64,000 nucleotides of DNA from positions 1 through 64,000 of the IMG/VR virus record IMGVR_UViG_3300046794_000491. The stretch is one strand, 5' to 3'. The notes under the pieces were generated by a model. That model worked only from the letters and a program-made list of their open reading frames with translations. It was not told the origin of the DNA and searched no databases. Shown here in pieces: positions 20,843-51,914 of this stretch. This DNA is from a virus. The position numbers and the translations under genes were made by a program. Positions within the stretch are counted from its first letter, which is position 1. Each line of letters starts with the position of its first letter.

Positions 20843-22144
20843 TTACACCGGGGTGGTCCACGAGCCGATGACGAACGACTCCGGACGGGAGACCTCCAGG
20901 GCGAGACGCTCGTCCGCGCGGAAGGTGAGGACACCGCGTTCGAAGTTGTCCGAGTTCTCGCTGGAGACGGTCACGGAGACGTTCTCGCGGTCGTAGATCT
21001 GCGCGCCCATCCCAAAAGAACCCAGAAGGTACTTGTCGTCCGGCATTGCGGTGGTTTCGACCACGTTGACGCGCCACACGCGCTTCTGGGCGCCGACGGC
21101 GACCTGGAGCGCGACACGGAACGCGCCGTTGTTGTCGGTCTCGACCTCCACCTGCTCCCACATGCTCGGGGAGAGGACGACGCCGGTCGGCTCGTACTCA
21201 GCCAGGAGCGCCTTGGTCATGGCCCGGCGCATCTGGATGGAGAACTTGTCGGTGTTGGCGCCGATGTACTGCTGTACGCCCGGGGTGTTGAACAGGCCGG
21301 TGATGGACTGACCGTCGCCGCCGATGGAGTGCAGAAGGTCGTAGTCCTCGGCGAACTTGATGCCCTCGATCAAGCGGCTGTTGATGAACTGCTTCAGCCG
21401 CGGCTCGTCCGAGAGGATGTTCTTGTGGCCGTCGAGCATGTGCGCGATCTCGGCCACCGGGAACGAAACAGGCTGGAGGGTCAGCTTCGAGCGGGGCGCC
21501 CGGCCGAACACGTCGGTGTCGGCTCCGGTCGGCGCGGACGTACCGTCGGCCGCACGACGCTCCGGGACCTGGGCCGCGTTGTTGACCCACCCGGTCTCGC
21601 GGATGCCCTGAAGGATCGCGTTCTTGGTCGTGGCCTTCGGGAACAGGTCGCGGATGTGCATCTTGCGGCGCTGCGCCTCGGTGATGCCGAGATCCTCAAC
21701 GCCACCCAGGGCCGGGTGAGTCTGGGTACCGGCCGACAGGGAGAAGATCGACTTCCCCTCCATCTCGGCGCGGATGAACGGGCGGTCCTTGAACTGGCCA
21801 CGGGCCGCAGCCTGGTAGGCGTCGGACTCGACGAACATGTCGCCGAGCGACTTCACCTCGGTGTTGGAGCCGGAGGAGCCGCCGTAGTACTGGCCGGCCG
21901 CGGACCGCCCCTCGGGGGCGTCGAGGTACTGGCCGAGAGCTTCGGCGCCGGACGCGGCCTCGATCAGGCTCTTGATCTCCTGGGCGTCCTTGACGGACTT
22001 GACGTACGCGTTGCGCTGCTCGGTGGAGACGACGAACGCGCCGTTCTCCTCCTTGAACGTGCCTGCGATGCGCTCAGCCTCGGCAGACTTCTCGTTGAGC
22101 TGCTGCTTCAGCGAGCGAAGCAGATTCTTGTCGGTGGTAGGCAT
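20843..22144 (-). CDS. Major capsid protein, HK97 fold
   Basis: ATG 22144 (MPTTDKNLLRSLKQQ) follows AGGAG; a frame to 22204 is discounted. The 433-residue protein has a coiled-coil N-terminal segment (delta-domain-like, about 1-98), then K98-SLGDMFVESDAY, and a long HK97-type body (GVVLSPSMWEQVE, WRVNVVETTAMPDDKYLLGS). HK97 gp5 is cut after Lys103 before an SLG sequence, so E96-V-K98/S99-L-G here is a plausible maturation site removing the delta domain. It is the main shell subunit, and the protease gene lies immediately upstream. Confidence 0.92.
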   Translation of the reverse strand: MPTTDKNLLRSLKQQLNEKSAEAERIAGTFKEENGAFVVSTEQRNAYVKSVKDAQEIKSLIEAASGAEALGQYLDAPEGRSAAGQYYGGSSGSNTEVKSLGDMFVESDAYQAAARGQFKDRPFIRAEMEGKSIFSLSAGTQTHPALGGVEDLGITEAQRRKMHIRDLFPKATTKNAILQGIRETGWVNNAAQVPERRAADGTSAPTGADTDVFGRAPRSKLTLQPVSFPVAEIAHMLDGHKNILSDEPRLKQFINSRLIEGIKFAEDYDLLHSIGGDGQSITGLFNTPGVQQYIGANTDKFSIQMRRAMTKALLAEYEPTGVVLSPSMWEQVEVETDNNGAFRVALQVAVGAQKRVWRVNVVETTAMPDDKYLLGSFGMGAQIYDRENVSVTVSSENSDNFERGVLTFRADERLALEVSRPESFVIGSWTTPV

Positions 22145-22310: not shown

Positions 22311-24575
22311 TCAGAGCGCGAGTTCTGCGAGGGCCGCCTTCACTTCCGCGGCGTCCAGACGCACCTTGTCCTGGTCGTCGGGGTCGCCATCGGGCTCAGC
22401 GTCGGGCCCGTCGCCGGAGTCGCCGCCGCCGCTGGTGTTCCCCGGGGGAACAGCCGTGTCCGAGCCGCCCTCGGTGTCGGCATAGGGGATCTCCGCGTCG
22501 TCCTGCGAGCCCTCGCCGCTGTCGCTGCCGTCCCCTTCGTCGGCCATGTCGTCGTAGGCGCCGGGGTCCTCCTCGTCGTCCCAGCCGTCGGTGAGGGTGT
22601 ACTTCCCCAGCCAGTCGCCGCCCGAGCCGTCGCCGCCGTGCATCTCGTCCGTCGGCATCCCCTTCTTCGACAGGGTGTCGAGGAGCTTGCCGATGGTGGG
22701 CTTCAGGTACTCAAGGTGCTCCGGCCCGGCGTCGGAGACCTGGATCAGTGCCGTGGCGTCCTCCAGTGCCCGCCCGGTCGGCTTGATGTACCGCTCCTGG
22801 GTGGCTTCGTCGTCGTCCGCTTCCCGCTCCATGCCGGATACGGGGACGGCCACGGTCGTGAGCTCCACACGGACCGGCACGCCGAGGTCGATGTCGCGGC
22901 CGGACGCGGTGTACGGAATGGCGTAGGTCTCCGTCTCCCCGTCGTCGTAGCGGGTGACGATGACGCTGTCCGGATAGGTCGCCTCCACCGTCACGAAGCA
23001 GTCGACCGGCTGCGTCGGGCCTGACTGATCGTCGTCCCGGTCGGGCGAGAACAGCGTGCGAGCGGCCTTGCCGAGCTGGTCGCGGAGCTGCTCGAAGGAG
23101 TAGGGCATGGGGGTGCTCATGATGCGCTCCGGAAGGTGTAGAGGCTCAGCGGCGGACTTGGCTTCGAGGACGATCCGCGCGGCCGACTTGCGCTCTGCGG
23201 CCGCGTGGGTGGCGGGGTAGATCCCCATGGCGTCGTGATGGCGCAGGTTGCAGTAGCCCTTGGCGTCCTGCGGGCTCATGTGCTTGCCAGCGATGGCAAC
23301 GCACCGGTCGAAGTCGCCGGGCGTTCCCCACGCGATATCCGAGGCGCCTTCGCCGTGGACGTACCAGTCACGCAGCTGCTCGGCGTCACCCTTGTTCTTG
23401 TCCCACCCGCCGGAGGCCTTCGCTTCCAGCACGATCCGCGCGGCCGACTTCCCCTCCATCGGAGGCGACGGCGGGCCCGCGGGCTCGTCGGTCGGCGCCT
23501 CTCCGAGGGGAACCTCGAACTCGTCCTCGCCGCGCACGCAGTGCAGTTGAGTGAACGTCACCGGTGTCGCCGGCACCGGATCCAGGTCGGGCATGTTGTA
23601 GCCGAGGGTGATGTGCGGGGTGAACCCGTGGTTGTCGCGCACGTGGTCGGAGTAGACCGACGTGGACAGCGCCTGCGCGACCCGCTGCCGCAGCTCCGCC
23701 AGGCCCGGCACGTCCACCGGCACCCACGTGGGTACTCCGTCCCCGCTGTCGGGGAAGCGGCCGATGCCGCCGATGCTGCCTGCCAGGGGCCCGGTGTCGT
23801 TCACGGCAGGGGTGACGATGTCGCGGAGGTCATCCGGGTGCCCGCCGAGGTCTTCCACGTCGCCGAGGTAGGCGAGCGTGATGTGCAGGTTCTCGGCCGG
23901 CGTGCCGTCGGGGTGAGCGATCTGCTCGGCCACGTCCTGCGGGACCTTCAGCGCGACCATCACGCCGCGGCCGGTCTGCTGTTCGGCGGCCTTCAGCTCG
24001 ACGGCCGACCAGGTGGCCTTACGTTCCAGGTCCGCGGCGCGCTGCCTGCTGGCTGCCTTCACTTCGATGCTGCGGGTCATCGGGTGCGCGCCATGCAGCA
24101 CGGGACTGACCTCGTACAGGTCGAGATCGTGGATGATGCGTACGCCGTCGTGCCGCTTGGAGGCGCCGCCGGGCGGGACCTTGAAGCCGATGGAGAACTG
24201 CGCCTCGCCGTTCTCGTGCCACTGCCGGACCTGTTCGTAAGCGTCGCGGCCGCGGGTGGTGCGCAGGTTGTACTGGACGGCGGCGACCAGAGCCCCGGCT
24301 TCCTGGGGCCACACTGAGCCGCCCGGGATCGTGGCGAACCGAGGGTCGCCGGGCATCCACTCCTCGATCGAGAGGACGCTGCCGACCGGTTCCTTCCAGT
24401 CGTGGTGCCATACCGGCTTCACGCGGCGCTTGGTCAGGGTGCGGGTGAACGCCCCGGGGATGATGAGGTCTTCGACATCGTCCACCACGCCCGTGACGGC
24501 GTAGATGGCGCGGACGATGCCCTTTCCGCCGCGGGTGCGGCGCAGACTTGCGGTCTTGGGCGGCGGGCTCGGCAC
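22311..24575 (-). CDS. Prohead protease polyprotein with 2H phosphoesterase domain
   Basis: GTG 24575 has AGGAGGA seven bases upstream; GTG 24611 lacks one. The 754-residue product has several modules (numbering from 24575): an HK97 prohead protease, about 18-168, with likely catalytic H57/H58 in VWHHDW and S128 in AQFSIGF; a 2H phosphoesterase, about 200-360, with H231-I-T233 in LHITLAYLG and H321-I-T323 in PHITLGY; a small His/Cys module, about 387-462 (WGTPGDFDRC, GYCNLRHH); a beta-rich module, about 487-590; and a very acidic tail. E-x-K/(A,S) sequences follow residues 173, 195, 386, 473 and 746, between modules, and KSAARIVLEAK occurs twice. Self-processing into separate products is inferred. 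The acidic tail could serve as scaffold. Confidence 0.85.
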   Translation of the reverse strand: MPSPPPKTASLRRTRGGKGIVRAIYAVTGVVDDVEDLIIPGAFTRTLTKRRVKPVWHHDWKEPVGSVLSIEEWMPGDPRFATIPGGSVWPQEAGALVAAVQYNLRTTRGRDAYEQVRQWHENGEAQFSIGFKVPPGGASKRHDGVRIIHDLDLYEVSPVLHGAHPMTRSIEVKAASRQRAADLERKATWSAVELKAAEQQTGRGVMVALKVPQDVAEQIAHPDGTPAENLHITLAYLGDVEDLGGHPDDLRDIVTPAVNDTGPLAGSIGGIGRFPDSGDGVPTWVPVDVPGLAELRQRVAQALSTSVYSDHVRDNHGFTPHITLGYNMPDLDPVPATPVTFTQLHCVRGEDEFEVPLGEAPTDEPAGPPSPPMEGKSAARIVLEAKASGGWDKNKGDAEQLRDWYVHGEGASDIAWGTPGDFDRCVAIAGKHMSPQDAKGYCNLRHHDAMGIYPATHAAAERKSAARIVLEAKSAAEPLHLPERIMSTPMPYSFEQLRDQLGKAARTLFSPDRDDDQSGPTQPVDCFVTVEATYPDSVIVTRYDDGETETYAIPYTASGRDIDLGVPVRVELTTVAVPVSGMEREADDDEATQERYIKPTGRALEDATALIQVSDAGPEHLEYLKPTIGKLLDTLSKKGMPTDEMHGGDGSGGDWLGKYTLTDGWDDEEDPGAYDDMADEGDGSDSGEGSQDDAEIPYADTEGGSDTAVPPGNTSGGGDSGDGPDAEPDGDPDDQDKVRLDAAEVKAALAELAL
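22436..22452. promoter_or_regulatory. 17-bp palindrome (candidate parS), distal copy
   Basis: TGTTCCCCGGGGGAACA lies inside the protease polyprotein gene, encoding VPPGNT in the acidic tail, 6.8 kb from the nearest other copy. Confidence 0.68.
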
Positions 24576-24673: not shown

Positions 24674-25303
24674 TCACTGCCACGGCTTGCCCTTCTTCTT
24701 GCGCTTCGGGTCTTCGTCGCCCGGGTCGGCGTTGGGGTCCGTGTCGTCCTGCTCCGCCGGGTCGGCGGGTACGGCTTCGTCTGCGGTGCCGTAGTCGAGC
24801 GAGAGGCCGCCGTCGTCCGCGGCCGCCGGGTCCGCATTCGGGTCCATGACTGTCGGGTCTGCGTTCGGGTCCGTCATCGCCGGGTCGCCGGCCGCCGGGT
24901 CGGTGGGTGCTCCGCTGCCGTCGTATGCCTGCGGGTCGCCCGCGGCCGGCTGCCCGCCGGTGCCGCCGGTCTGCGACATGCCCGCGTCGTCCACGTCGAT
25001 CGCCCACGCGTCCACGTCGGAGTACCGGTAGACCTGTCCGGTCTCGTCACGTACCCAGCCCGTAAGCGTGCCGTCCTCGGCCTTGTCGAGCCATGCTTGC
25101 TCAGCGTTGGGCCCGGAGAACGACGCGTAGGCCTGCGCAGGGTCGGTCTCGTCGCCCTCGTCGTAGGCGTCGCCCGCCCACGGGCGCGCGTCATCCTGGT
25201 GCGGCGGCTGGAGCTCGGGCGGCTGCTCGGCCGCCGGGTCCAGGCCCTGCGCGGCCGGGTCGTCGGACTGGGGCAGCGCCTTCACGTCGAATCTGTAGTC
25301 CAC
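24674..25303 (-). CDS. Acidic Pro/Asp-rich protein, candidate scaffold
   Basis: A 209-residue protein starting at GTG 25303 with a weak ribosome site. It begins MDYRFDVKALPQSDDPAAQ, where D-V-K/A resembles the capsid maturation site. A short folded centre (AWLDKAEDGTLTGWVRDETG) is flanked by acidic disordered stretches with DPNADP repeats, and it ends with a basic KRKKKGKPW. Acidic, helical-to-disordered proteins next to the protease and capsid genes are often scaffolds. The portal gene is far away (49 kb), so the usual order is interrupted. Function not established. Confidence 0.6.
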   Translation of the reverse strand: MDYRFDVKALPQSDDPAAQGLDPAAEQPPELQPPHQDDARPWAGDAYDEGDETDPAQAYASFSGPNAEQAWLDKAEDGTLTGWVRDETGQVYRYSDVDAWAIDVDDAGMSQTGGTGGQPAAGDPQAYDGSGAPTDPAAGDPAMTDPNADPTVMDPNADPAAADDGGLSLDYGTADEAVPADPAEQDDTDPNADPGDEDPKRKKKGKPWQ

Positions 25304-25981: not shown

Positions 25982-26239
25982 ATGGCTAAGACACAGTTGA
26001 ACGCGCGCGTGCCGGAGGAGCTGGCCGACGAGGTCCGCTCGGCCGCGAGTAGGGCAGGCATGGACATTGGGGACTACGTCGCCGCAGTCCTTGAGGCTGA
26101 CCTGGCGGCCGCGTCAGGAAGTCAAGAGCTGCGACAGGCTCGTGCGAACATGCACGCTGCCGCGGCCTACAAGAAGTGGCTGGCCAGTGAAAAGTCCGAA
26201 GAGGGCGCGATGGGCATGGAGGAGGTCTTCAACGCGTGA
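25982..26239 (+). CDS. Antitoxin-like ribbon-helix-helix protein
   Basis: An 85-residue protein. The first 40 residues (MAKTQLNARVPEELADEVRS then AGMDIGDYVAAVLEADLA) fit a ribbon-helix-helix DNA-binding fold, and the remainder is helical and acidic, as expected for a toxin-neutralising tail. The stop overlaps the next start by four bases (GTGA). RHH antitoxins repress their own operon together with the toxin. Confidence 0.72.
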   Translation: MAKTQLNARVPEELADEVRSAASRAGMDIGDYVAAVLEADLAAASGSQELRQARANMHAAAAYKKWLASEKSEEGAMGMEEVFNA

Positions 26240-26484
26240 CGGCGATCCCGGCAAGGTTCGCTGCCCACGTCGGCGAGACCATCAAGAACCTGGCCGGCCC
26301 TGACAAGGAGGAGCTGCACACCGCGATCCTGCGGGCGTGTGCGGACCCGATGTCGTGGCCGCAGGCCGACAAATACGAGATGGACGAGACGGTGCGCGTC
26401 ATCACGACGCGCGCCGCCATCGTCCACTACGTGATCCTTCTCGGCGCGGATCCGCACCTGTGGGTGTTCGCCATTACCGTTTGA
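26236..26484 (+). CDS. Probable RelE/ParE-type toxin
   Basis: An 82-residue protein coupled to the antitoxin by GTGA. The C-terminal half (YEMDETVRVITTRAAIVHYV then WVFAITV) has the alternating strands of RelE/ParE-fold toxins. No active-site residue can be named with certainty. RelE relatives cut mRNA on ribosomes and ParE relatives act on gyrase. The 3' end overlaps the minus-strand gene at 26474 by 11 bases. Confidence 0.62.
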   Translation: MTAIPARFAAHVGETIKNLAGPDKEELHTAILRACADPMSWPQADKYEMDETVRVITTRAAIVHYVILLGADPHLWVFAITV

Positions 26485-47700: not shown

Positions 47701-48448
47701 CGGCGGCGCGCAGCGCGTCACCGTTGCCCATCACGTGCTGGTTGTGGATGGCCGCGCCACGGTGGTCGGCGCCGCCTCCGGTTATGGACAGCAGGTCGGG
47801 GAAAGAGCGCTGCGGCGCGTTGCCGCGCTGCGTGGCATTGCCTACGCGGTCGCCGTTCTCGTCCTTCGGGTTGGCCATGACGCGGCCCTGCGGGACCAGC
47901 AGGGGGTCATCGTCCTGGTTCGGGTCGTCGGGGCCCGCGCCGTGGTCCTGGCCCTCGATGTCCTGCCCGATCGGCTTGCCCTCGTCGTCATGCGTGTGAG
48001 GCTCGTCGGGGGTAAAGCCGTTGTCGCCCGGGTCGTTCTCGCCGTGGTCCTCGCCGTTGTCGTCCTTCGCCGGGTCGTGCGCGGCGAATCCGTTGCCGCG
48101 GTTCTCGTCGCCGAAGCGCCGCTCGTCCTCGTCGCGGACCTTCTGTTTGCTCTTGGTCGGAGCGGAGCCGTCCGGGCGGGCGACCATGGTCAGCCGGGCC
48201 GCGTTGATGCGTGAGCGCTCGTGCGTGGCCAGGTTCTCCACCAGCACATCGCGGCCGCCGAGAGCGCGCAGCACGCGGGCCATGCCGCCGCCCCACATGC
48301 GGGCGATACCGCCCGTCTCCACAAAGCGGCCCTTGGAATCGCGGGGGTGCAGATCCGGGTTCCAAGTGCGACGCAGCCTCTTGGTTTCGAGGCTGGCGAG
48401 GATGCGGTCTGCGGCGCTCATGATCGGCATGCGGCGGACCATGCACAC
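26726..48448 (-). CDS. 7240-residue polyvalent anti-restriction/helicase protein
   Basis: One frame is open for 21.7 kb. Start is GTG 48448 or ATGs at 48442, 48430 or 48421. An HPRDSKGRF segment near residue 34 is common in phage virion proteins. Modules include a methylase-like domain near 1410-1480 (VLEPGSGVGNF, then NVPFG in place of NPPF); an SF2 helicase (AHEVGAGKTAEMA near 2150, VVDEAHMYKN near 2320, ATATPVANS near 2370, QRNGRVIRQG near 2700); a winged-helix segment near 3215-3265; an SF1/UvrD-like helicase (ALAGTGKSST near 3777, WDEAQD near 3975, SVTRATD near 4334); tandem repeats and beta-barrel segments from 5050 to 6400; and a helical C-terminus. P1 DarB and other polyvalent phage proteins combine such domains and are injected with DNA. 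Injection is inferred. Confidence 0.85.
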   Translation of the reverse strand: MCMVRRMPIMSAADRILASLETKRLRRTWNPDLHPRDSKGRFVETGGIARMWGGGMARVLRALGGRDVLVENLATHERSRINAARLTMVARPDGSAPTKSKQKVRDEDERRFGDENRGNGFAAHDPAKDDNGEDHGENDPGDNGFTPDEPHTHDDEGKPIGQDIEGQDHGAGPDDPNQDDDPLLVPQGRVMANPKDENGDRVGNATQRGNAPQRSFPDLLSITGGGADHRGAAIHNQHVMGNGDALRAAGPKVNDHNSQFWDTSHARRALRDLSVDYFGDLEGVWPEDWNNAEARDLYEELFGWLSGDEAPFEVGDDKNDHFDPTEVDKLSWSADDAEHLAELAHNDGQDDVARYAQNLADALNFAYERFDSHGKKPIPAPKRKLANDQPLVPRAWRPDGTRETVYKTPGQQPGTTGSRSKSAAGKGQRRFNTLADVHQHWQSGTLVPVTSDKAKQERHRKETAALFDKLEKPQLSRGGTFVVAKMTVEKDGKRKSGYAVIVSNSGVRLAMSDRKGEALDFANRLEAAQSDGKPFDWDAPDFHKRLESTEGQAMVRQASEEAKKAFADKAAKKREGAAAKRTPAPATPAPAAPPAPAPAERPNPLVQAAQNIANTTGAPAQNIGVGHVGPGTNTAPDGRTRKPSTTGELREYWKNGGDPSFDAHTKERLSQFANNRDLKITLADHFAFAVIERGPENFNVVRAYDGRGIGFTGSAGQGFKSRQDASRFALMIGREVEEPSRPGQPVDWWDPELFRRNPNRIGGWRKEFGNRMDDVRGRFDIEHGHADSYFAKEYEKRQEEQNKPAPTPAATPAAAPAAAAPNAPQATPDGDFPNTGDEVNSPDGVGSVMAVNKDSGSVLVRAEQGTHSHALKDITRPDGTPYAGNRANTPNPDAPQPAPQAAPEQRDWSQVSREDLDAAYAKADQDWSDTLSSGDQAKKARAQAEKTAILAEAQRRDGQAYAQQLSRVQLGARNDSGHRPAAVDGDNQDDATLQGSAGRWTWNRLGHGTRYSSKKPFLTEEAALADLVREHDSERPPAPPAASDVPTEPQDDAPGEQRPTLAVTAASHHIVEALDLAEQQLGPVVNSLTELRGAPAALDLAAPAGDAVDALKRGDIEPSEAIRRFQDALDGMQRALRGRGGDHAHAAEFLRLARENVSVARQALSEQHKRSNDSVVRGSRSDVLEDVPGQGSGSVPDGQGVRGVRPGAVGRDRAADRGSDGGVGSSAAGGDGRGGAGSRAEVGPDAGPGAGASGHGVRDAEGSGDGDEGHAAGGAASAPVAFGTPEQQATAPAYEPPADGKTLVPSSPVNRAKANIAAIEILRRLQDENRPATGAEQQELARYSGWGAVPQIFKPQPDAQFQPLAKRLRSLLSDAEWDDARANTLNAHYTDPQIVQQMWSALTDLGFDAGSVLEPGSGVGNFIGYAPDGTHMTGVEVDSITAGIAKALYPHAEVRHESFGDTRAPNGTFDAAVGNVPFGRYKVPDLVHNKGGHSIHNHFILKSLDLTRGGGLVSVVTSALTMDGHGGRSEAARMEMAEKAELVGAIRLPSGAHQRTAGTSVMTDLLIFRRRDKSKSFTSGRNRKGEVKRPSERTQNDPPMWVHSLPTYALPGQNPPKADTPPEQAEPPVFYNSYFHDNPQQVLGRLAVGHGMNRDNELRVDGDGKTIANLQRVLKRTVEEAKAAGLAYKPDTEGRSRVTLLPPGSSRVDGHVQAEPDGTFTQVRDGMVHPFPVFKTQANEARQLLAIRDTFQSLLSEENRKDADESLIERLREALNKQYDAYHSKFGAINRFTWSKRTAVDPDTGEKVEKTYRKKAARGGLFTNDPTMANITPLDEYDDTTGKTTKAPIFSKRLGTYREIAKYADDPQDALAIVLETDGRLTADGLARVMRTDADTAIARLLTARSVDPDTGVEYPMAFQAPDGKLVTAADYLSGNVRQKLDEARHAAADDSRYDLNVEHLERVVPPDLSTGEIAAPMGASWIGREPVEQFLRETFNDQRIKVSWQGGALWAVDAPDGAKKSIAERTAHTWSAKGYTALEIAEAILTNRKIVVTKKDGHGENAKSVYDKDATEDAQAKASLLREAFTDWLWADSDRAEKHKRYYNDNFNSMAPRSYDGQRRTIPGLVEWFDPHPHQHAAVARMVNEPSVLLAHEVGAGKTAEMAMGVMELRRLGLVKKAAMVVPGHMLEQFRHEFAEIFPESVANNRILTASSEDLAGKGRREFIARAAAGDYDAIILTQTAFESIQMRPEVQEDYISRRVERLREKIFRQKDADGEGNDTRLVKRMEASLKSLEEKLDKKLSGLKDAAGLHFEDMGVDYLVVDEAHMYKNLDTPSSVAAIDGSNRASDLEMKLEWLRERSSTGRVVTFATATPVANSIAEVHTMMRYLRPDLLKELGMLDFDDFASTFAQMVSAVERSPDGSYKEKTRLAAFQNVPELLRLWRSFADVKTAEDLDLPVPGIVGGKAVTITMPMSPAQEEYEARLRIRAARLEGGNVDPKEDNHLKLLGDGRMAALDPRLLDPSLGGGNKLPTVADNVVRIYGETKDAVFPTSKTDATPHETPGGLQIVFLDLGTPKDPGRSKKRKKKAGSGSEADEMDAGLADDGSELSREDEETYTDFSTYDELKSLLIARGIPSEQIRFIHEAKDDAAKARLFNDARSGKISVLLGSTAKMGTGTNVQLRAVALHHVDAPWRPADVDQRNGRVIRQGNANAEVAIFQYATERSTDAKFWEAIARKAKFIRALMRGSLSERVVEDIGPVTFDADEVSALTAGDPHLIAQAQLKPLVNRLRGRFNAYRRSQEGFKQAIRDSAQAEEWTKQYVAQLQKAVEKRKTTRGDDFNARIGTTDFEGGDARDDARRALNTALRAVFADGMRRPYDENAPATRIGQVGGLDVTARFVRTRSIGNQWYDTVRVDLPQVPGAWQDYEDHELIDHDGKPRSLPLSRIENSIANIDERINRAEHRRADKKRAAEQAAGRIGKPFELATEFDESTRQLDLLNEIMRLKAQPTVTEEDTAKRNKQIDSLDAELRAMSSDQEDVLAQVAARDVNLVPKTPAPPAISQDDKGRVKWIWPTTEARDAERAKKLAAKREAFLARTSSSAQAAPAQPDALGMNNADLKEETDQLAERISKGEATDADVVRHAGLEREQQRRAKNRQAKEKPATPTGQGDESASSNPSASDDTTTPPQQAPAEPNLTTAQAAALESALNSVRSPDGRQIEAHPNVLRRLLKLGYAEERSKPRVGGGSITYYVLTPEGERRAKSIGEEREKARAARLAELDAADEAPEGESQTDTTPSPSQDSPEPVQRPAAPANGIPGASPQQPPAPRTTPPQEDRPRPARNQADTVRPFANAREWSAGMATVEAAQGQVTRAAETTWGRDVPGTARSLRDNVFAAIAAQEAGDFDDAAGSLVAAQDDAQALRSSLDDVDRPGMEDPLSNFMRTADDYLARHAVSVEKRRREDAQQGSIEREAQEQFRRSLMGDQASASEAPEAPAAGSVAPSTAAGWRDGDFQPGDTVHFRNPNAMNALQKGEFVRSTGPGAALLRNPQGAEREVQYIDVVGRTRNGEFQQNPQSPTPQANRQDQQPTPPTPEPAAAPAASTGGTAPQAPRPQRTAPSDVRPVPATPPADMSADQLGEELDSLDERIESLKGATDPVDLAYRFRLEQRQFELDEEERRRWKPTVEHDENGKAIPRKRGDVIRDRLAGYGLNDAETRGLAHRVEDLPAAKPGGYSDDEWARIDAEASANESYPPTEEQGIIIEGAARRGLNMAVMALAGTGKSSTLKMLSHRMPGKRIVYLAFNRSVANEAREAQARGEYAQNLTASTANSYAAKVADKRLNNRLPSNKRDGFKKLSAQQIADRMRWYDTVKAGNRDLSPGGAATVAERMIRTWAKSADAEMGPQHITGAKTKQEARDLFNAVKPLADRMWANLSDPTRGDADEDLTMDFDYIVKMWALGGYKIDADTLFWDEAQDVNPVMEGVVRGAIDQGVQVVAVGDSNQAIYGFRGAADALGKLPVDARATLTQSFRFGPAVADVGNRFLRLLGTRMRLKGFDRKKSRLGNIKPGDETMVIARTNAGVALAAVEALAAGRRVAVSGGVKDLQEFVQAARALANGEHTDHAELARFNGMAYDDILDAVKDDPDLSQLKSLFQLLEKHPDEIDQLMESGAQSARSENVGGRVWVTLDWNDPKAGQLKRWLGDAKTNGVGKLLYDPATRRYYYEPGKRNVPWKDARTGRSGEHRVDNKLSLEDAQKKIDAHLAKLYPQEEAEGGRLVPETQEHDVLVTTAHKSKGLESERVRVADDFRGPERDDNGNIKWDTMPDDEALRVAYVSVTRATDVLDSGSLGWVFEAVNDEDPTQPPTGEYRRDWVPDDFKTGDRINFQGEDGTFHTGEVARVDAPGLIARYEDDGQRREQDISVAQVQRLNGQKQPLLPVASDGELNQAIAEGRYPSAGGDAPVKLDPEQVRNDLADLRGDAIAPETGDANAPQAPAAADTPQPADTEPTPTAPEADNAPAAGTGAWAEGDEVITPQDEQGTIQHVADNGVALVATDIGLRPVALSELKRPGQDMSEAEAVRQAETRGRRAEEDAWLAAAATSEGAPIKTMDGYRLANLDVDAGHGAIMRDGEMVAWIRARGPKGEATWLAQDARGGRPMTPAAAVSEGDGEDGIYHSIERAAWSAAYGADSSVDPSRGQGVTRPEDQRGPIMGTLLTEAQFREFQDLAKRWESSDDADLRHVGTKYYAGPVSAGQMRHAADAVDSEADALDLSTADGRRREKLYRGLAKGLRSQARSLEASATMAPPGEHDPFSRRGMQPDAPESGDGARGDADVPEWADDLGNGIWVDKPKKGVSGPRNIYVDGRIEGLLGRDKDTDEYYWWRPGGQRGEGRYDTPEEAARGFARDMQDRDLPSLSNREGDAEAGPSDSADGSSEGDNSTPNDDVSDGGQGQEERDQTDERDDSEDNNDDRDGRRRRRNRLGNGAGGAGGPGLPGVPHLSGPGDGNRGTAPGAGGSGGNDRNGGGRAPHASGADTNSGPDENGGRFLSLPELAEHWSQVERLVTPEGEKLLFGPDPKARTAELAGQTTQVRIDEVHVPHTWYKGRYIGNIRANGQKLKEWEAQLPFPGAGVHDTPRFSSRNAALAYLVLASEAHDNYRDVSRISPEQAREFRFMSVDDHREEDQAALAAYSPEGKERLAALKQLMDSLHNGQSPSDNVADDLANAFTGAQWLYENFPRPDTTEGVTGLRSSLGRVMERSSFALDTISPEHPLAHNHARQRDEDAAAYMHGQLAKVKKEDAETVAPEGLRNGDLVEISGLADVSFGPERRKEQGYIVGEPIKTTIDIGRKGGPVSGWRITVSDTPFIPPGRLAKRRTFLIPDKNKGITRFARAEDTGLPTDEIIRVGRPGQPEGTPDAGRAVPTGDAPASAAASQYGINSAHPLGERRAGTVDGRRIPTPEEMEQYEVGEDRAIDDEGERALFGSPERMQELAAQGFVPEPRIRSDKDGEVWRNGRLIGNLREPNRHGFYTEEPPQLWEGELPLATYLHEPRFTTRDQAIAYLVLRDMEQGEPDLSIVHPDIAWDFSHTNPGLGFPPEEEGLRGLESLNDSPAAMERYRKIRALVDALGRGETVSGNVADDLDHLHDELRWLDSTHYKHQPADLKHKYILGPGWLADQIREYLDVLRPEDPRAMHHETSKARAAKQFLSTLLDEGGRDNSRKVPVTDLRAGDIVHLAGRVTDRYPGATDSRTGYVVGEPSKATFTVNKKRHKGLRITVADSPVGAHKLDGNTFIIPVGDSVERLASVDDITLPVDEHTYGRQVGETPVATPERTAGTPSGEARTTAQNAEEPRPDSDTRTNAPAADAQRSTPETGSSAADRPAPAARPEPETAQQAAADQAEPEAPAEPEPVGGRPAEWVKVSDIAMGDLVRIDGITKRGTSRTLAGYVVGGPELVPTEQARKVQDMYRVLIADTPDGKGARGSVWVAQDATAARATGDASDTGSLQTGADSDVLTGRISGRVANDADGNGLFPGSTVTDDDGREGVVVGATAGTAQVQFGDDRTDDAHAPSSLTVTDGGAARPTGWTPDGHRVDTGNVVGDRDGNMLGTVEEVDGDTATVATPQGMEPMSIRDLRVLGGSDSSGPADEKVAHVEPVTAGEIQPGDVLVRGNRTVKVKTAQHSGQTSYLGLEDTTSGDTNTLAVPSDTEMQRAAAADGGAPDLGPEDAPLANDPITTHEPAPAVDPVTGPTVDPELAPEERDAIADRGTAPSSDPDAEQAAARIGRDLPVTPDQASALADDLREGADTSTPEGRAAKRAADHLDQAAGQAGAADDGGMTTEARYLQTGDVIEAPVNGETSRLLVVEANRSEDGNTVDLQLANADGRFIHQTVGARVPFRPVPHDGNDVGGGVSEQSDRRIVPATGLKPGDHLVFGPGTNGSDWFTRKVQSVDVSDGRVSVQLEGLAGGPSSTRHFQILGGRGGAAELTTVMDKERPAAAWFASNQARLTGEAPNTPAPDSAPSGRPEPGTVGSVGVGDTIALPDETNPDTMGAYRVVDVADAPGGIRILTVEDGDGQRSERTLTATDPLYQLPEPEAPAAGPDTEARDPNQGLDPEAFQADYADAVARAVIGNAIQGTSTPGSIHQLREQIAEQLTLQAMRSLMRKLRQDFVNVVDGTGITGDARERMLAELRKTAMQTRTDAVKAAVRTLDDLEPLDGESPEDMARRAADLLRLIPESLRNRPKPEPDSAVPDDVPGDGGAASRIDDEVSSHVGDAVGDALAAADDGPLTPERRAAIVARLAQRMADSRNDTAGRIAANLPEGQRPGLMAGIVAALMQIARRIVELVAAFLKALAAGVKATGRAIARFGKGLGRRIRSWPETRRLRRMASAARSLPRPGDGMSLAEKVAHWAQLLPAPGRFGQVARRSRWYRSAARTTLAAGQLPQVQDGVRWTMDRAADRGPGRQALRHLAALRAAGADVDADLIARLTAAAPELGDDPHGTVRHARRYADRTEARLRDLRAVAAGTNAPDLAPEIAAARLEAQHAQQEAERLQQAYTAALPSAVRDTLSQVREMGPGGRNRLTLSHSSDAAATRALTDAAQYVPREWLADRASRFMTAVSGDAGAYDADSGTATIADLGDGGRATAAHALLAHLQRNYPDLLAAQEAFGFTRTHTGRPGARRSTLDVLLARLFGGQADQVTDEQIAARGLATMFSGDWYRDDDLRAFLLGLLATR
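44608..44934 (-). CDS. 108-residue gene overprinted inside the giant gene
   Basis: In the +1 frame relative to the giant gene, ATG 44934 follows GAGGAG and encodes MTVSYVDLVRTFWKTYRARE, then KAFEEFARERSDEIVQQIED, then RELKSVRMRARERVLQDMVY. It reads like a normal helical protein with GC-rich third positions. The giant frame over the same bases yields low-complexity Gly/Arg/Ser/Asp sequence. The most natural reading is that this gene is the original coding frame here and the giant frame crosses it. No function recognised. Confidence 0.68.
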   Translation of the reverse strand: MTVSYVDLVRTFWKTYRAREVDRFPTDKAFEEFARERSDEIVQQIEDLTEEWAPPLREGTDAVARARELKSVRMRARERVLQDMVYGMPKDPGTETKDMPRVELPPLP

Positions 48449-48714: not shown

Positions 48715-49085
48715 GGCGTTGTCTCCTTGGTCTCCTCGGGGGGTGCAGGCAGGGGGCGGGCGCCGTGCCCGTCGTAGGGGGCAGCAATGCCCGCGTCGAT
48801 CAGGTCCGTGTTCAGGCACGCGCCGTCGGCGGCCGAGACCGTGGCGAGCCATCGGCCGTACTTCTCCCGGGCGTGGGTCTCCACCACCAGCTCGGGGCCG
48901 TGCTCGGTGAGCCATTCGGCCACCCACGCCTTCGCGGCCTTGCCCTCCGGGGCGTTCTTCTCGGGGGCGTTCAGGCCGTTGAGGCGGAGCCGCTGCCGGG
49001 TGCGGATCGTGAAGCCGAGGTCGAGGTCAACGTCGAGGGTGTCGCCATCGACCACGCGAAGGACTGTGGCGGGGTAGGTGTTCAC
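48711..49085 (-). CDS. Staphylococcal-nuclease-like (SNase) protein
   Basis: A 124-residue protein, GTG start overlapping the portal stop (GTGA). Motifs VVDGDTLDVDLDLGF, LNGLNAPEKN and KYGRWLATV, then LIDAGIAAPYDG, match the SNase OB-fold with its Asp-rich Ca-binding loop, catalytic Arg (R in RLNG) and Glu (in APE). SNase enzymes are Ca-dependent phosphodiesterases cutting DNA and RNA. Lack of a signal peptide and its place after the portal suggest action in the cell or in the virion during head assembly. Confidence 0.8.
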   Translation of the reverse strand: MNTYPATVLRVVDGDTLDVDLDLGFTIRTRQRLRLNGLNAPEKNAPEGKAAKAWVAEWLTEHGPELVVETHAREKYGRWLATVSAADGACLNTDLIDAGIAAPYDGHGARPLPAPPEETKETTP

Positions 49086-51550
49086 GGCAGGTCACGCCCT
49101 TCGGTGCGGTACCGCAGGCGGCAACGGCAGTTGATGGTCAGGTGGAGCGGGGCGAGCTGATCGCCGGGGAACCGCATCGGGTAGCCGTCCACGTCGAACG
49201 GCCTGGTGACCGGCAGGGTGGTGCCGTCCACGGCCTCATGTGCGGGCCGTACGCGGTCGTCTCCGCGGGTGACCCAGGTGCGGACGATGCCGGGGCCGAT
49301 CGCCGCGGCGGTGGCCTCCGCGGTGCCGTTGACGGTGGCGACGGCCGCGGTCTCGGCGGCGCTCGCTATGGCCTTGGCTGCCATGTCGCCGAACGCGGTC
49401 CGCGCGAGCGCCACCAGGTCGTCAATGTCGTCGGCCGCCAATTGCCCCTGCACCAGGAGCGTGGTGACGCTGTCGAGGAAGCCGCGGGCGATGCTCTCGG
49501 CGGCTGCCACGGCGTCGAGGACAGCGGCGGTGATGCGCGGCGAGGCCTCCGGCGGCGGCTTGGGGGCGCCGAACGCGTCGGCGGTGCGCTGGGAGACGGT
49601 GGCGGCGATGCGGGCCAGGACCCGGGCGAGCGCGCCGGTGATCTCCTCCATCCACCGGTCCGTGCCGACGATGCGCGCCACGTCGAGCGTGGTGTCTCCG
49701 CCGCGGATGTCCGATGGGTCCTGCGCACGCCAGAACTTGGTGCCCTTGCGTGTCTTGGGGGAACGCAGCCGGGCGGCGATCACGCCGTCCTGCCGGGCGA
49801 ACAGGGCCTCAAGGGCGAGGGCTATCGCCTCTTGCGCGCGGTCGAAATCGTCGTCGGTGACCTCGAACGAGGGGCCGTCATCATCCGTGCCGGACAGTGC
49901 CTTGGTTTGCAGGCCTCGGGCGTCCTCCACGGCGGCTGCGGCCTCGCCCGGGGCGGGCGGCAGCTCGTTGGCGGTGCGGGCATCGGCGACCGCGGCCGCG
50001 GCTTCCCCGGCGCCGGCGGGCTGCTCGATGCCGGTGCGGGCCTGCGAAACCGCGGCGGCCGCCGGGCCGTTCGTGTCCGGCAGTGCGCCGGGGCCGGCGG
50101 GCTGTCCGCCTTCGGCGCGGGCCTGCGCGACGACGTCGGCCGCCGATCCGTCCGCCTGCTGCTGTGTGGGGTCGAGCGGCGCGTTCGGTCCGCCCATGCC
50201 CGGGATGGCGCCTGCGCCGCCTTGTGTGGGGTCGCCGTTGCCTTGGATGCCGAGCGCCGCGGCGTCCTCCGGGCGCAGCGGCACGGGCGCCTTCTGCGGG
50301 CTGATCCACAGGGCGCGGGAGTGCGGGTTGTTGTAGGCGGGCATGCCCGCGCGGCGCCGGTACTCGTCAATGGAGATCAACCCGGCGTCGAACTCGGATC
50401 GGGCTTCCTCGCGGCGCTTGCGGCGCGGCAGCTCCAGCGCCTGAACCGTCGAGGTGTTGTAGCGGATCTTCAGATCCAGGTCGCCGACGTCCCCGGCGAA
50501 CGCGTCGCTGATCAGCGCAAGGTGGCCGAGCTCCGTGTGAATCCAGAACCCGTACTCTTCCTGCTCGGCGTTGTCGAAGGTGCGGCCGGAGGCGTTACCG
50601 GTGACGGACTCGGGGACACCGAACGCGCCGAGGATCTCGATCTTCGCGTTCTGCGAGGCATGCTCGTAGGCCATCTCGCGCGGCTTGGTCGCAAGGTCCA
50701 CGTAGTTCATGCCGCCAGGGCCTGCGCCGACGACGGAGACGTGCCCGGCGTACTGGGAGCCGGGCAGGAACCGGGCCTCCAGTCGGTCCATGTCCGAATC
50801 GGTGAGCGAGCCCGTGTCCACGGCCACGATGCCGCCGGGCCGTGCGTCGTTGCGGATGAACGCCACGTTGTACAGGCGGGACAGGTGGTCGAGTTCGATG
50901 CTGATCCCGGCGGCTTCCAGCGGCGTGACACCGGAGAACGGATCGGTCGGGTGAGGCTTCCTGATCCAGCGCACCCGCTCCGGATCGAGCTCACGGACGT
51001 GCCCGTACAGGGTCGTGAACTCGAAGTGCTTGATGTACTCGCCCTTTTCGTCGGGCACGGGGATGACCCGGTCCGGCGGCAGCAGGTCGAGACGTGTGAT
51101 GGTGCCGCGGTTGCTGCGGGTCACCTCAACGAACGCGCCCCGCTTGGATAGCAGGATCTGCGCGGACAGCCGCTTACGGAGCTGCGCCCCCGACTCCATC
51201 GGGTTCGCGTGCGGCCCGTTCAGGACCCGCAGAAGCGGATGGTCCTCAATGACTTCCTCGAACTCGCCGTCTTCGGTCAGGCCGCGCCCGATCTCCAGCG
51301 GAAGACGGGCGGCGTGCTCGCCCATCGTGTCGATGGCCTTGTAGACCCAGATGACGCGTTCGTATCCCTCGGTGACCACCCGGCCGAGGTCCCAGCCGTC
51401 GGCGCGGCCCTCGGTGCCCCACACGTTGGTCGTACCGGCGTAGGTGGTGGAGGTGTAGCCACCCGTCCACGTGATCGTTTTCGACTCGTCCGGCTGCGGT
51501 CCTGGGGTGACCAGTGAGCGCAGCGCGGGAAGCCAGCGGCGTCGGGCCAT
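49082..51550 (-). CDS. Portal protein fused to a MuF-type domain
   Basis: ATG 51550 (MARRRWLPALRSLV) has GGAGG at six bases; a frame to 51589 is discounted. Residues about 30-420 carry the HK97-type portal fold (AAGISIELDHLSRLYNVAFI, GGMNYVDLATKPREM, GVPESVTGNASGR). A linker follows with three repeats of about 24 residues, AAAAV-x-x-AR and variants. The last 250 residues form a helical MuF-like domain ending DDRVRPAHEAVDGTTLPV and LTINCRCRLRYR. Portals form the 12-mer ring through which DNA passes; MuF domains are minor capsid proteins often linked to toxins or ejection. Fusion of both in one protein, with a Q-T-K/A before the MuF part, suggests possible proteolytic release. Confidence 0.85.
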   Translation of the reverse strand: MARRRWLPALRSLVTPGPQPDESKTITWTGGYTSTTYAGTTNVWGTEGRADGWDLGRVVTEGYERVIWVYKAIDTMGEHAARLPLEIGRGLTEDGEFEEVIEDHPLLRVLNGPHANPMESGAQLRKRLSAQILLSKRGAFVEVTRSNRGTITRLDLLPPDRVIPVPDEKGEYIKHFEFTTLYGHVRELDPERVRWIRKPHPTDPFSGVTPLEAAGISIELDHLSRLYNVAFIRNDARPGGIVAVDTGSLTDSDMDRLEARFLPGSQYAGHVSVVGAGPGGMNYVDLATKPREMAYEHASQNAKIEILGAFGVPESVTGNASGRTFDNAEQEEYGFWIHTELGHLALISDAFAGDVGDLDLKIRYNTSTVQALELPRRKRREEARSEFDAGLISIDEYRRRAGMPAYNNPHSRALWISPQKAPVPLRPEDAAALGIQGNGDPTQGGAGAIPGMGGPNAPLDPTQQQADGSAADVVAQARAEGGQPAGPGALPDTNGPAAAAVSQARTGIEQPAGAGEAAAAVADARTANELPPAPGEAAAAVEDARGLQTKALSGTDDDGPSFEVTDDDFDRAQEAIALALEALFARQDGVIAARLRSPKTRKGTKFWRAQDPSDIRGGDTTLDVARIVGTDRWMEEITGALARVLARIAATVSQRTADAFGAPKPPPEASPRITAAVLDAVAAAESIARGFLDSVTTLLVQGQLAADDIDDLVALARTAFGDMAAKAIASAAETAAVATVNGTAEATAAAIGPGIVRTWVTRGDDRVRPAHEAVDGTTLPVTRPFDVDGYPMRFPGDQLAPLHLTINCRCRLRYRTEGRDLP

Positions 51551-51551
51551 G

Positions 51552-51914
51552 TCACTCCTCCCCGCCGCACACCCACACCGCGACGGCAAGCAGGGCGGCG
51601 AACAGCAGGGACCACGGGTTCACGGAGTACGCCACCGCGGTGATCAGCATCAGGCCGGCGGAGAGAGCGCCGTAGCCGCCTACCAGCCGGATCAGGCGTG
51701 GCACGGGCGGTGTGGTCTGAAGGACTGCGCCGCCTGCCGTGGCGGTGAGGAGCCCGATCAGGAGCAGGGCCACGGCCGGTGATCCCATGGACAGGGCTCC
51801 CAGCAGGCCGACCGTTCCGGCGCCGACCAGGAAGAGGCCGATCAGGTCGCGGGCGAGGCGTCGCCGCGGTGCCCGATGGCTGGGGAGCGGTGGGGGCTGC
51901 GTTGGAGGATTCAC
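51552..51914 (-). CDS. Four-helix membrane protein
   Basis: A 120-residue protein starting at GTG 51914 (no strong ribosome site). After a Pro/Arg-rich head come four hydrophobic segments (LIGLFLVGAGTVGLLGAL, AVALLLIGLLTATAGGAV, GGYGALSAGLMLITAVAY, LLFAALLAVAVWVC). The stop lies just before the portal ATG (TGACATG), so the two are coupled. Phages often carry membrane proteins near lysis or exclusion genes. Placement before the portal is not enough to assign either. Confidence 0.6.
   Translation of the reverse strand: MNPPTQPPPLPSHRAPRRRLARDLIGLFLVGAGTVGLLGALSMGSPAVALLLIGLLTATAGGAVLQTTPPVPRLIRLVGGYGALSAGLMLITAVAYSVNPWSLLFAALLAVAVWVCGGEE

Follow-up and report, generated by a model that had tools for sequence, protein, structure and literature searches.

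Prohead proteases are usually regarded as coat-processing enzymes. The protease of phage HK97 is small and single-domain, the junction at which the HK97 coat is cut reads Lys/Ser-Leu-Gly (here and below, a slash marks the point of cutting), and neither the protease nor the delta fragments are retained in the capsid. We describe here a head gene carried on positions 1 to 64,000 of the IMG/VR virus record IMGVR_UViG_3300046794_000491 (this whole stretch of 64,000 nucleotides is called the window), the product of which is a prohead protease polyprotein. As judged from its sequence, this phage of Streptomyces-type bacteria seems to make its maturation protease as one chain with attached enzyme modules, and with cutting signals at most of the module borders. 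The polyprotein shares with HK97-type proteases the S78 domain, the location of its gene beside the coat gene and a Lys/Ser-Leu-Gly junction in the coat. In contrast to the single-domain HK97 enzyme, it and its relatives carry a 2H or a NUDIX domain, a His/Cys module, an alpha/beta module termed Cmid and an acidic part, and the motif recurs at most of the borders between them.

Several described systems resemble parts of this arrangement. Excerpts of PMC9024508 state that the HK97 coat loses an N-terminus of 104 residues. Fusions of NUDIX or 2H domains to head proteins are already known: excerpts of Iyer et al. (2022; PMC9503650) report NudE-like domains fused to MuF, to portal proteins and to a capsid-processing serine peptidase, and thought to be packaged, and excerpts of Iyer et al. 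(2017; PMC5512222) report 2H domains fused to MuF or portal proteins. The same excerpts hold no mention of cleavage sites at domain borders, of an exchange of 2H and NUDIX in one slot or of a motif shared with the coat. A cleavable, swappable cassette was not found described, as evident from a search of the open-licence literature in PubMed Central (subscription papers being outside its scope), which returned no account of cleavage sites bracketing swappable modules.

In phage P1, according to excerpts of PMC9024508 and PMC12810830, DarB bears a 30-residue capsid targeting signal at its N-terminus, and the prohead protease trims DarA; an excerpt of PMC5512222 places P1 DarB in a family of the methylase-helicase type. 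As far as these excerpts describe the P1 Dar system, the two phages are alike in having a giant SNF2 effector with a short leader near the head genes, and in P1 the head protease trims an internal protein. However, the P1 cargo is encoded in separate genes, whereas here small enzymes are attached to the protease itself.

Two further systems resemble the polyprotein in architecture. Gp52 of Streptomyces phage Gilgamesh, annotated as a ‘hydrolase’, is a homologue with the protease, similar sites and the same C-terminal part, but a NUDIX domain replaces the 2H domain and the His/Cys module is missing. The phrog_18402 proteases, represented by gp18 of Gordonia phage Tiamoceli (locus L009, 4750-7602), unite a protease, a His/Cys module and a 2H domain within a single chain, the latter two in tandem, but gp18 lacks a match to phrog_80 (the S78 group). 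It thus has a similar cargo on what is seemingly a different protease family, and it carries two E-x-K/(A,S,T) motifs in 950 amino acids (aa), both behind the 2H domain, against a mean of 0.8 in shuffled sequence.

Candidate cleavage sites between the modules of the polyprotein

The polyprotein contains eight E-x-K/(A,S) motifs, in which the Lys is at residues 173, 186, 195, 376, 386, 463, 473 and 746 (Table 1). Shuffled versions of the same protein hold a mean of 0.31, and a count of eight was reached in 0 of 10,000 shuffles. An initial annotation of this DNA had pointed out five of the sites, all of which are present as claimed; those after residues 186, 376 and 463 are additional.

Relatives were collected by scans with a protease alignment, which yielded 79 loci on viral contigs (145 places were confirmed, of which the 80 best were kept) and 18 loci in bacterial genomes. 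Site conservation was read from a Streptomyces group of 32 homologues, for which 37 proteins were listed, 35 are distinct, and 32 were kept after the removal of exact duplicates and of rows with at least 95% identity. The set excludes L011, which is nearly identical to the window, and L090, which is open at a contig end. L101 was dropped by the 95% filter, yet is used in the trees and in a comparison with L014 described below.

Homologues from Streptomyces genomes and related viral contigs exhibit a common layout, in which the protease is followed by a 2H or NUDIX domain, with or without a His/Cys module, and then by Cmid, the acidic region and a tail, with motifs at most of the module borders. 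The 32 proteins together carry 207 E-x-K/(A,S,T) motifs (2-8 per protein, mostly 5-8), compared with 2-18 for each of 13 control motifs. Glu and Lys are retained in 28-32 of the 32 at six positions (173, 186, 376, 463, 473 and 746), and at 186, 376 and 463 the residue between them (P2) varies among four, nine and six residues, respectively, even though Glu and Lys are kept. These counts across homologues represent conservation and not independent trials, because the members are related.

The placement of the motifs is equally uneven, with 203 of the 207 outside the mapped domains, in regions that make up 29% of all residues; three of the remaining four lie at the margin of a domain match. In the linkers from protease to Cmid, 180 of 235 lysines are part of E-x-K/(A,S,T), versus 4 of 369 lysines in domains. 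An AlphaFold2 model of the polyprotein was built from 15 sequences and has a mean predicted local distance difference test score (pLDDT) of 56 and a predicted template modelling score (pTM) of 0.30. Its folded units span approximately residues 18-157, 203-357, 392-450 and 491-570, with segments of pLDDT <50 between them. Seven of the eight sites are located in such segments separating folded units, and the last (746) is within a C-terminal helix, in a block with a mean of 59.

The domains themselves are recognized by several searches. Pfam matches to Peptidase_S78 (1.5e-12) and 2_5_RNA_ligase2 (5.5e-13) both exceed the curated cut-offs; the S78 model PF04586 gives 48.4 bits against a cut-off of 21, while the score for the equivalog TIGR01543 is 44.6, below its cut-off of 59. 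Among the PHROGs, phrog_80 (head maturation protease) matches the front of the chain and phrog_6439 corresponds to the His/Cys module. Residues H58 and S128 of the S78 domain are invariant in 32 of 32 homologues and are probably the catalytic residues of the protease. A search of the PDB with the S78 domain returned no solved relative at E up to 5. For Cmid, three PHROGs families each matched one of 35 members, and Foldseek gave a weak match in BFVD to a ‘Prohead protease’ (E 5.6e-3). PADLOC gave no result. The chain unites unrelated enzymatic domains (S78 and 2H, and NUDIX in relatives), as do the polyvalent proteins of mobile elements (Iyer et al. 2017).

Probable module exchange between the sites

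Between like sites, the first slot is occupied by a NUDIX domain in 18 of the 32 homologues and by a 2H domain in 14, and no Streptomyces-group homologue was found to carry both in one chain. The NUDIX domain of Gilgamesh gp52 (Pfam, 5.1e-16) stands at the position of the 2H domain in the window. One protein, from L031, carries a 2H domain but clusters with the 18 NUDIX proteins (support 98/99 on the protease tree, 97 on the Cmid tree). Supported branches of the Cmid tree place it among the NUDIX proteins, and therefore two 2H/NUDIX changes are needed. The same nesting on the protease tree is supported by 86/70 only, and a single change suffices in 7% of the protease bootstrap trees. Because of this weakness, a swap of 2H and NUDIX inside a conserved frame is considered likely, short of certain.

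For the His/Cys module, 7-8 changes are required on the trees. Loci L014 and L101 share 2005 of 2058 aligned bases and differ by one clean in-frame gap of 168 base pairs, with which 56 codons of the His/Cys module are gone. The catalytic motifs of both types of enzyme are intact: all 15 aligned 2H domains have the HxT pair, and all 18 NUDIX-type homologues have the NUDIX box. H231 and H321, the residues proposed for mutation in the initial annotation, are indeed the histidines of the HxT motifs according to sequence and alignment.

At L106 (7944-10436), a kinase-like stretch lies behind a protease-2H chain (PI3_PI4_kinase, 2.5e-5, slightly short of the curated cut-off) and may represent a third kind of cargo.

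Proposed processing and its alternatives

The coat protein carries the same type of signal. The E-x-K/S motif that had been noted after K98, directly before SLG, is present, and a pattern search finds the delta junction E-x-K/(S,T)LGD in 35 of 37 group loci. The junction of L031 reads IEEK/SFGD, which brings E-x-K/(S,T) to 36 of 37, and the record of L090 ends ahead of the coat gene, so that its junction is unreadable. P2 of the group junctions is variable (V, I, A, Y, Q, E, F or M). Beyond the Streptomyces group, the sequences of L044, L050, L102 and L104 have Glu at the corresponding position (P3); a different residue occupies it in L041, L047, L074, L099, L100 (also Arg at P1), L103, L105 and L106. 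The strict coat-junction Glu is therefore a trait of the Streptomyces group, since P3 is mixed outside it, and its presence may track the number of motifs in the polyprotein (1-4 in the ten counted outside the group versus 2-8, mostly 5-8, inside).

Self-cutting is, on comparative grounds, well supported by the conservation of the sites, their placement, the motif at the coat junction and the exchange of modules between sites, and we estimate a probability of about 0.72 that the protein is a self-processing head polyprotein with exchangeable cargo. The polyprotein would be incorporated into the prohead, where its own S78 protease would cleave after Lys in Glu-x-Lys/(Ala,Ser,Thr), mostly with a hydrophobic or small residue ahead of Glu. 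This signal would be the same as that of the coat delta-domain junction, where the coat would be cut at K98. Expected products are the protease, a 2H phosphoesterase of ~20 kilodaltons, a His/Cys module of 77 residues and a C-terminal part with alpha/beta and acidic regions. The polyprotein would thereby act as a carrier with one slot for 2H or NUDIX and a second slot for the optional His/Cys module. In the initial annotation, one protease was proposed to release itself along with a 2H phosphoesterase, a His/Cys module and an acidic tail; the comparison of homologues favours such a separation, and the interpretation as a whole finds partial support.

Several observations weigh against this reading. 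Sites 195 and 386 are lineage-specific, site 173 adjoins the protease fold, and its V-K is kept without Glu in three distant relatives. The homologues are related and their counts thus non-independent, one group member (L036) has 2 motifs only, and across the 32 proteins there are 31 E-x-K with a residue other than Ala, Ser or Thr behind the Lys. The polyproteins of distant relatives hold 1-4 motifs (ten counted), and Glu is less strict in their coat junctions. In the Gilgamesh coat the motif recurs at K56 and, past the junction, at K127, indicating that the motif is insufficient to define a cut. The full-length structural model is low in confidence, and the position of L031 on the protease tree leaves room for a single 2H/NUDIX change. 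The pieces could also be lost after cutting.

If the polyprotein does process itself in this manner, its released pieces could accompany the DNA and be ejected. We consider it possible, at somewhat less than even odds, that the freed enzymes remain in the capsid, enter the host and act on nucleotide or RNA-end substrates. Retention and ejection would fit the preserved catalytic residues, the alternation of two hydrolase types at one place and the giant neighbouring protein with its leader, described below. The main rival holds that the polyprotein is cut but its pieces are not delivered: they would leave or be degraded, and the enzymes would do their work ahead of assembly, in the cell that produces the phage, or be no more than spacers. 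HK97 provides a precedent for such a loss, and the pieces freed here might leave likewise. An excerpt of PMC9024508 adds that the P1 protease is weakly detected in virions. However, catalytic motifs are kept in both cargo types, which disfavours mere spacers, and the leader of the giant neighbour likewise ends in such a site, an indirect argument; we regard loss without delivery as unlikely.

A self-processing polyprotein with exchangeable cargo, if real, would mean that the protease gene also serves to carry cargo and that its cutting code can be read, and candidate virion effectors would therefore be predictable from sequence in these phages. The exchange of 2H and NUDIX in one slot would then point to nucleotide-type substrates as a common target early in infection. 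The motif, together with the availability of Gilgamesh as an isolated phage, makes the idea directly testable.

With regard to the activity of the cargo, similarity to 2H enzymes was detected by Pfam, PHROGs, a PDB profile search and Foldseek alike. The best Foldseek match of the domain is drCPDase (5h7e, 2.4e-8), followed by 1iuh, 4qak and 1vdx and then by Acb1 (8.3e-5). A profile of 15 2H domains finds 5h7e in the PDB at 3e-9, and in the same search Acb1 is absent at E up to 1. The domain looks most similar to LigT/drCPDase-type phosphodiesterases and less so to Acb1. The ThpR/LigT equivalog TIGR02258 (RNA 2′,3′-cyclic phosphodiesterase) scores 36.2 bits, below its cut-off of 65.7. In the initial annotation, the freed domain was speculated, with reference to Acb1, to act on cyclic nucleotide alarm signals. 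The idea that it is an Acb1-like nuclease directed against CBASS (cyclic oligonucleotide-based antiphage signalling system), acting on cyclic oligonucleotides, can draw on the shared superfamily, the Foldseek match and the proposal, in an excerpt of Iyer et al. (2017; PMC5512222), that phage 2H domains could degrade host nucleotide signals. Given the four structures that rank nearer and the absence of Acb1 from the profile search, this idea is weak and we judge it improbable.

It is very improbable that the chain stays uncut as a working fusion in which the E-x-K repeats are helix caps or docking peptides: some sites mark the end of short predicted helices or are overlapped by them (191-199, 378-387, 465-474 and 742-753), and two linker peptides in the window fit the pattern [AS]A..[VI]..A[RK] of the portal linker (2 versus 0.02 in shuffles), which would suit docking but gained no support from a weight matrix, whereas the same E-x-K/(S,T) is present at the coat junction of nearly all group loci, where HK97-type coats get cut, and the residues around Glu and Lys are variable at several sites.

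Other head proteins and minor features

Table 1. Positions in the window, strand and characteristics of the polyprotein, its candidate sites and other head-gene features
Feature	Position	Strand	Remarks
Protease polyprotein, 754 aa	22311..24575	(-)	GTG start at 24575; homologues match most of length
Peptidase_S78 prohead protease domain	24060..24530	(-)	residues 16-172; Pfam
Site E171-V-K173/A	24054..24065	(-)	E in 31/32, K in 32/32 homologues; P2 fixed V
Site E184-R-K186/A	24015..24026	(-)	E and K in 32/32; P2 R, Y, H or L
Site E193-L-K195/A	23988..23999	(-)	lineage-specific; K in 12/32
2H phosphoesterase domain	23496..23975	(-)	residues 201-360; H231-x-T233 and H321-x-T323; Pfam, Foldseek, alignment
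Site E374-G-K376/S	23445..23456	(-)	E and K in 32/32; nine P2 residues
Site E384-A-K386/A	23415..23426	(-)	lineage-specific; E 12/32, K 12/32
His/Cys helical module	23202..23411	(-)	residues 389-458; phrog_6439; helical in model
Site E461-R-K463/S	23184..23195	(-)	E 28/32, K 32/32; six P2 residues
Site E471-A-K473/S	23154..23165	(-)	E 31/32, K 31/32; P2 nearly always A
Cmid alpha/beta module	22656..23153	(-)	residues 475-640; found in 32/32 non-redundant relatives; model
Acidic region	22365..22655	(-)	residues 641-737; pLDDT under 50
Site E744-V-K746/A	22335..22346	(-)	E 30/32, K 29/32; P2 fixed V
C-terminal octapeptide past last site	22314..22337	(-)	residues 747-754
Major capsid protein, HK97 fold family	20843..22144	(-)	Phage_capsid 8.6e-28; downstream of polyprotein
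Coat junction site E96-V-K98/S before SLGD	21848..21859	(-)	numbered from MPTTDK
Acidic neighbour protein	24674..25303	(-)	D-V-K/ALPQ near start; P3 not conserved
Polyvalent protein, 7,240 aa	26726..48448	(-)	SNF2, Helicase_C, UvrD matches
Leader end of 7,240-aa protein, L-E-T-K/R	48377..48388	(-)	(hydrophobic)-E-x-K in 21/22 N-termini read
Portal-MuF fusion	49082..51589	(-)	Phage_portal 1.7e-39; Phage_Mu_F 1.4e-5, under cut-off; PHROG portal 51-831
Site L-Q-T-K563/A-L between portal and MuF	49898..49909	(-)	behind four AAxxVxxAR repeats
Four tandem AAxxVxxAR repeats, portal-MuF linker	49916-50143	(-)	2-5 in relatives

The polyprotein gene is flanked by the genes for an acidic protein and for the HK97-type coat, and lies downstream of the genes for the 7,240-aa protein and the portal-MuF fusion. 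The 7,240-aa protein appears DarB-like on the basis of its SNF2 match; its putative methylase part is a reading made without a Pfam match. Its relatives are frames of 3,917-8,178 aa, and no match to it was found in 1 of 22 records searched (that of L036). The N-termini of the window, L108-L127 and Gilgamesh were read (22, of which 21 are distinct; L122 and L127, like L133 and L135, are the same sequence in two collections). The leader is variable in sequence and ends in (hydrophobic)-E-x-K right ahead of a conserved WNxxLHPRD, with I-Q-T-K as the exception. The next residue (P1′) is Ala in 11, Arg in 9 (including the window) and Val in 2, and with Ala in 11 of 22 it obeys the rule of the polyprotein in half of the cases only. 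Cutting in the interior of the 7,240-aa protein was considered and rejected (2 E-x-K/(A,S) versus a shuffled mean of 3.4).

Gilgamesh permits a similar count for a set of 105 genes (156 features are annotated; genes after 106 were excluded). Its 105 proteins hold 25 motifs versus 13.8 expected, with 6 versus 0.45 in gp52 (Poisson P 8e-6, uncorrected for 105 tests) and 3 versus 0.5 in the coat protein. The single motif in gp48 (4,624 aa) is at residue 26, which is the end of the leader.

In the portal-MuF fusions, all 20 readable linkers (of which 19 are distinct; 3 of 21 loci are without a readable linker) have (E,Q)-x-K/(A,S,T) behind the repeats, and L, I or V precedes this motif in 19. P3 is Glu in 12 and Gln in 8, namely the window and seven other 2H-type loci. 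Because of these Gln residues, the portal site is looser than that of the polyprotein, and the site in the window fails the E-x-K test. More tentatively than for delivery of the enzymes, we suggest that one cutting code may serve the whole head, including the coat, the split between portal and MuF, the leader of the 4,000-8,000-aa DarB-like effector and the enzymes of the polyprotein itself. Such a code, if true, would provide a standing system for loading and release, which could take up new early effectors by recombination between sites.

Further candidates were set aside. The claimed D-V-K/A of the acidic neighbour is present, but its role as a cleavage site is unsupported: K/ALP is conserved where found, yet P3 is D, E, S or A in relatives, and the protein was therefore left out of the site count. 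In distant relatives, an E-x-K/(A,S,T) close to the beginning of the protease was not used, as in our judgement it may be the first strand of the fold. A capsid-targeting helix shared by polyprotein and portal (AARIVLEAK resembling AAxxVxxAR) was likewise rejected. Within the scanned proteins, the repeat pattern occurs in the portal alone among 63 of the 105 Gilgamesh proteins and, among five window proteins, also in the polyprotein, twice; the NUDIX-type polyproteins, that of Gilgamesh among them, all lack it. A weight matrix from 44 distinct portal 9-mers, applied to 18 window proteins and 60 Gilgamesh proteins and thus to less than a whole proteome, leaves AARIVLEAK outside the 20 best window 9-mers, and the top 9-mer of the Gilgamesh polyprotein (11.0) equals that of unrelated proteins.

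Proteases joined to very long frames were encountered elsewhere. At L088 (7980-16463), an S78-like protease heads an open frame that spans 2,828 aa or more and has matches to SNF2-type helicases, such that protease and giant effector are joined in one chain; this protease is recognized by a BLAST match only, Pfam giving no S78 hit at E up to 0.01. In L043 and L049, S78 is at the start of frames of over 2,800 aa. Gp12 of Brevibacterium phage Cantare (L006, 5869-7179) has the His/Cys module on a protein of its own, with LLSELETK/A behind it.

A small Gilgamesh gene annotated as a ribosome modulation factor (L005, 7732-7941) lies immediately ahead of the protease gene, whereas the 98-base gap at this location in the window is too small for such a gene. 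Finally, two small overlapping genes lie on the opposite strand within the head gene block of the window (25982-26484, plus strand). The first has a weak likeness to CopG antitoxins (0.0049, under the cut-off) and the second has no match; the two are possibly a toxin-antitoxin pair.

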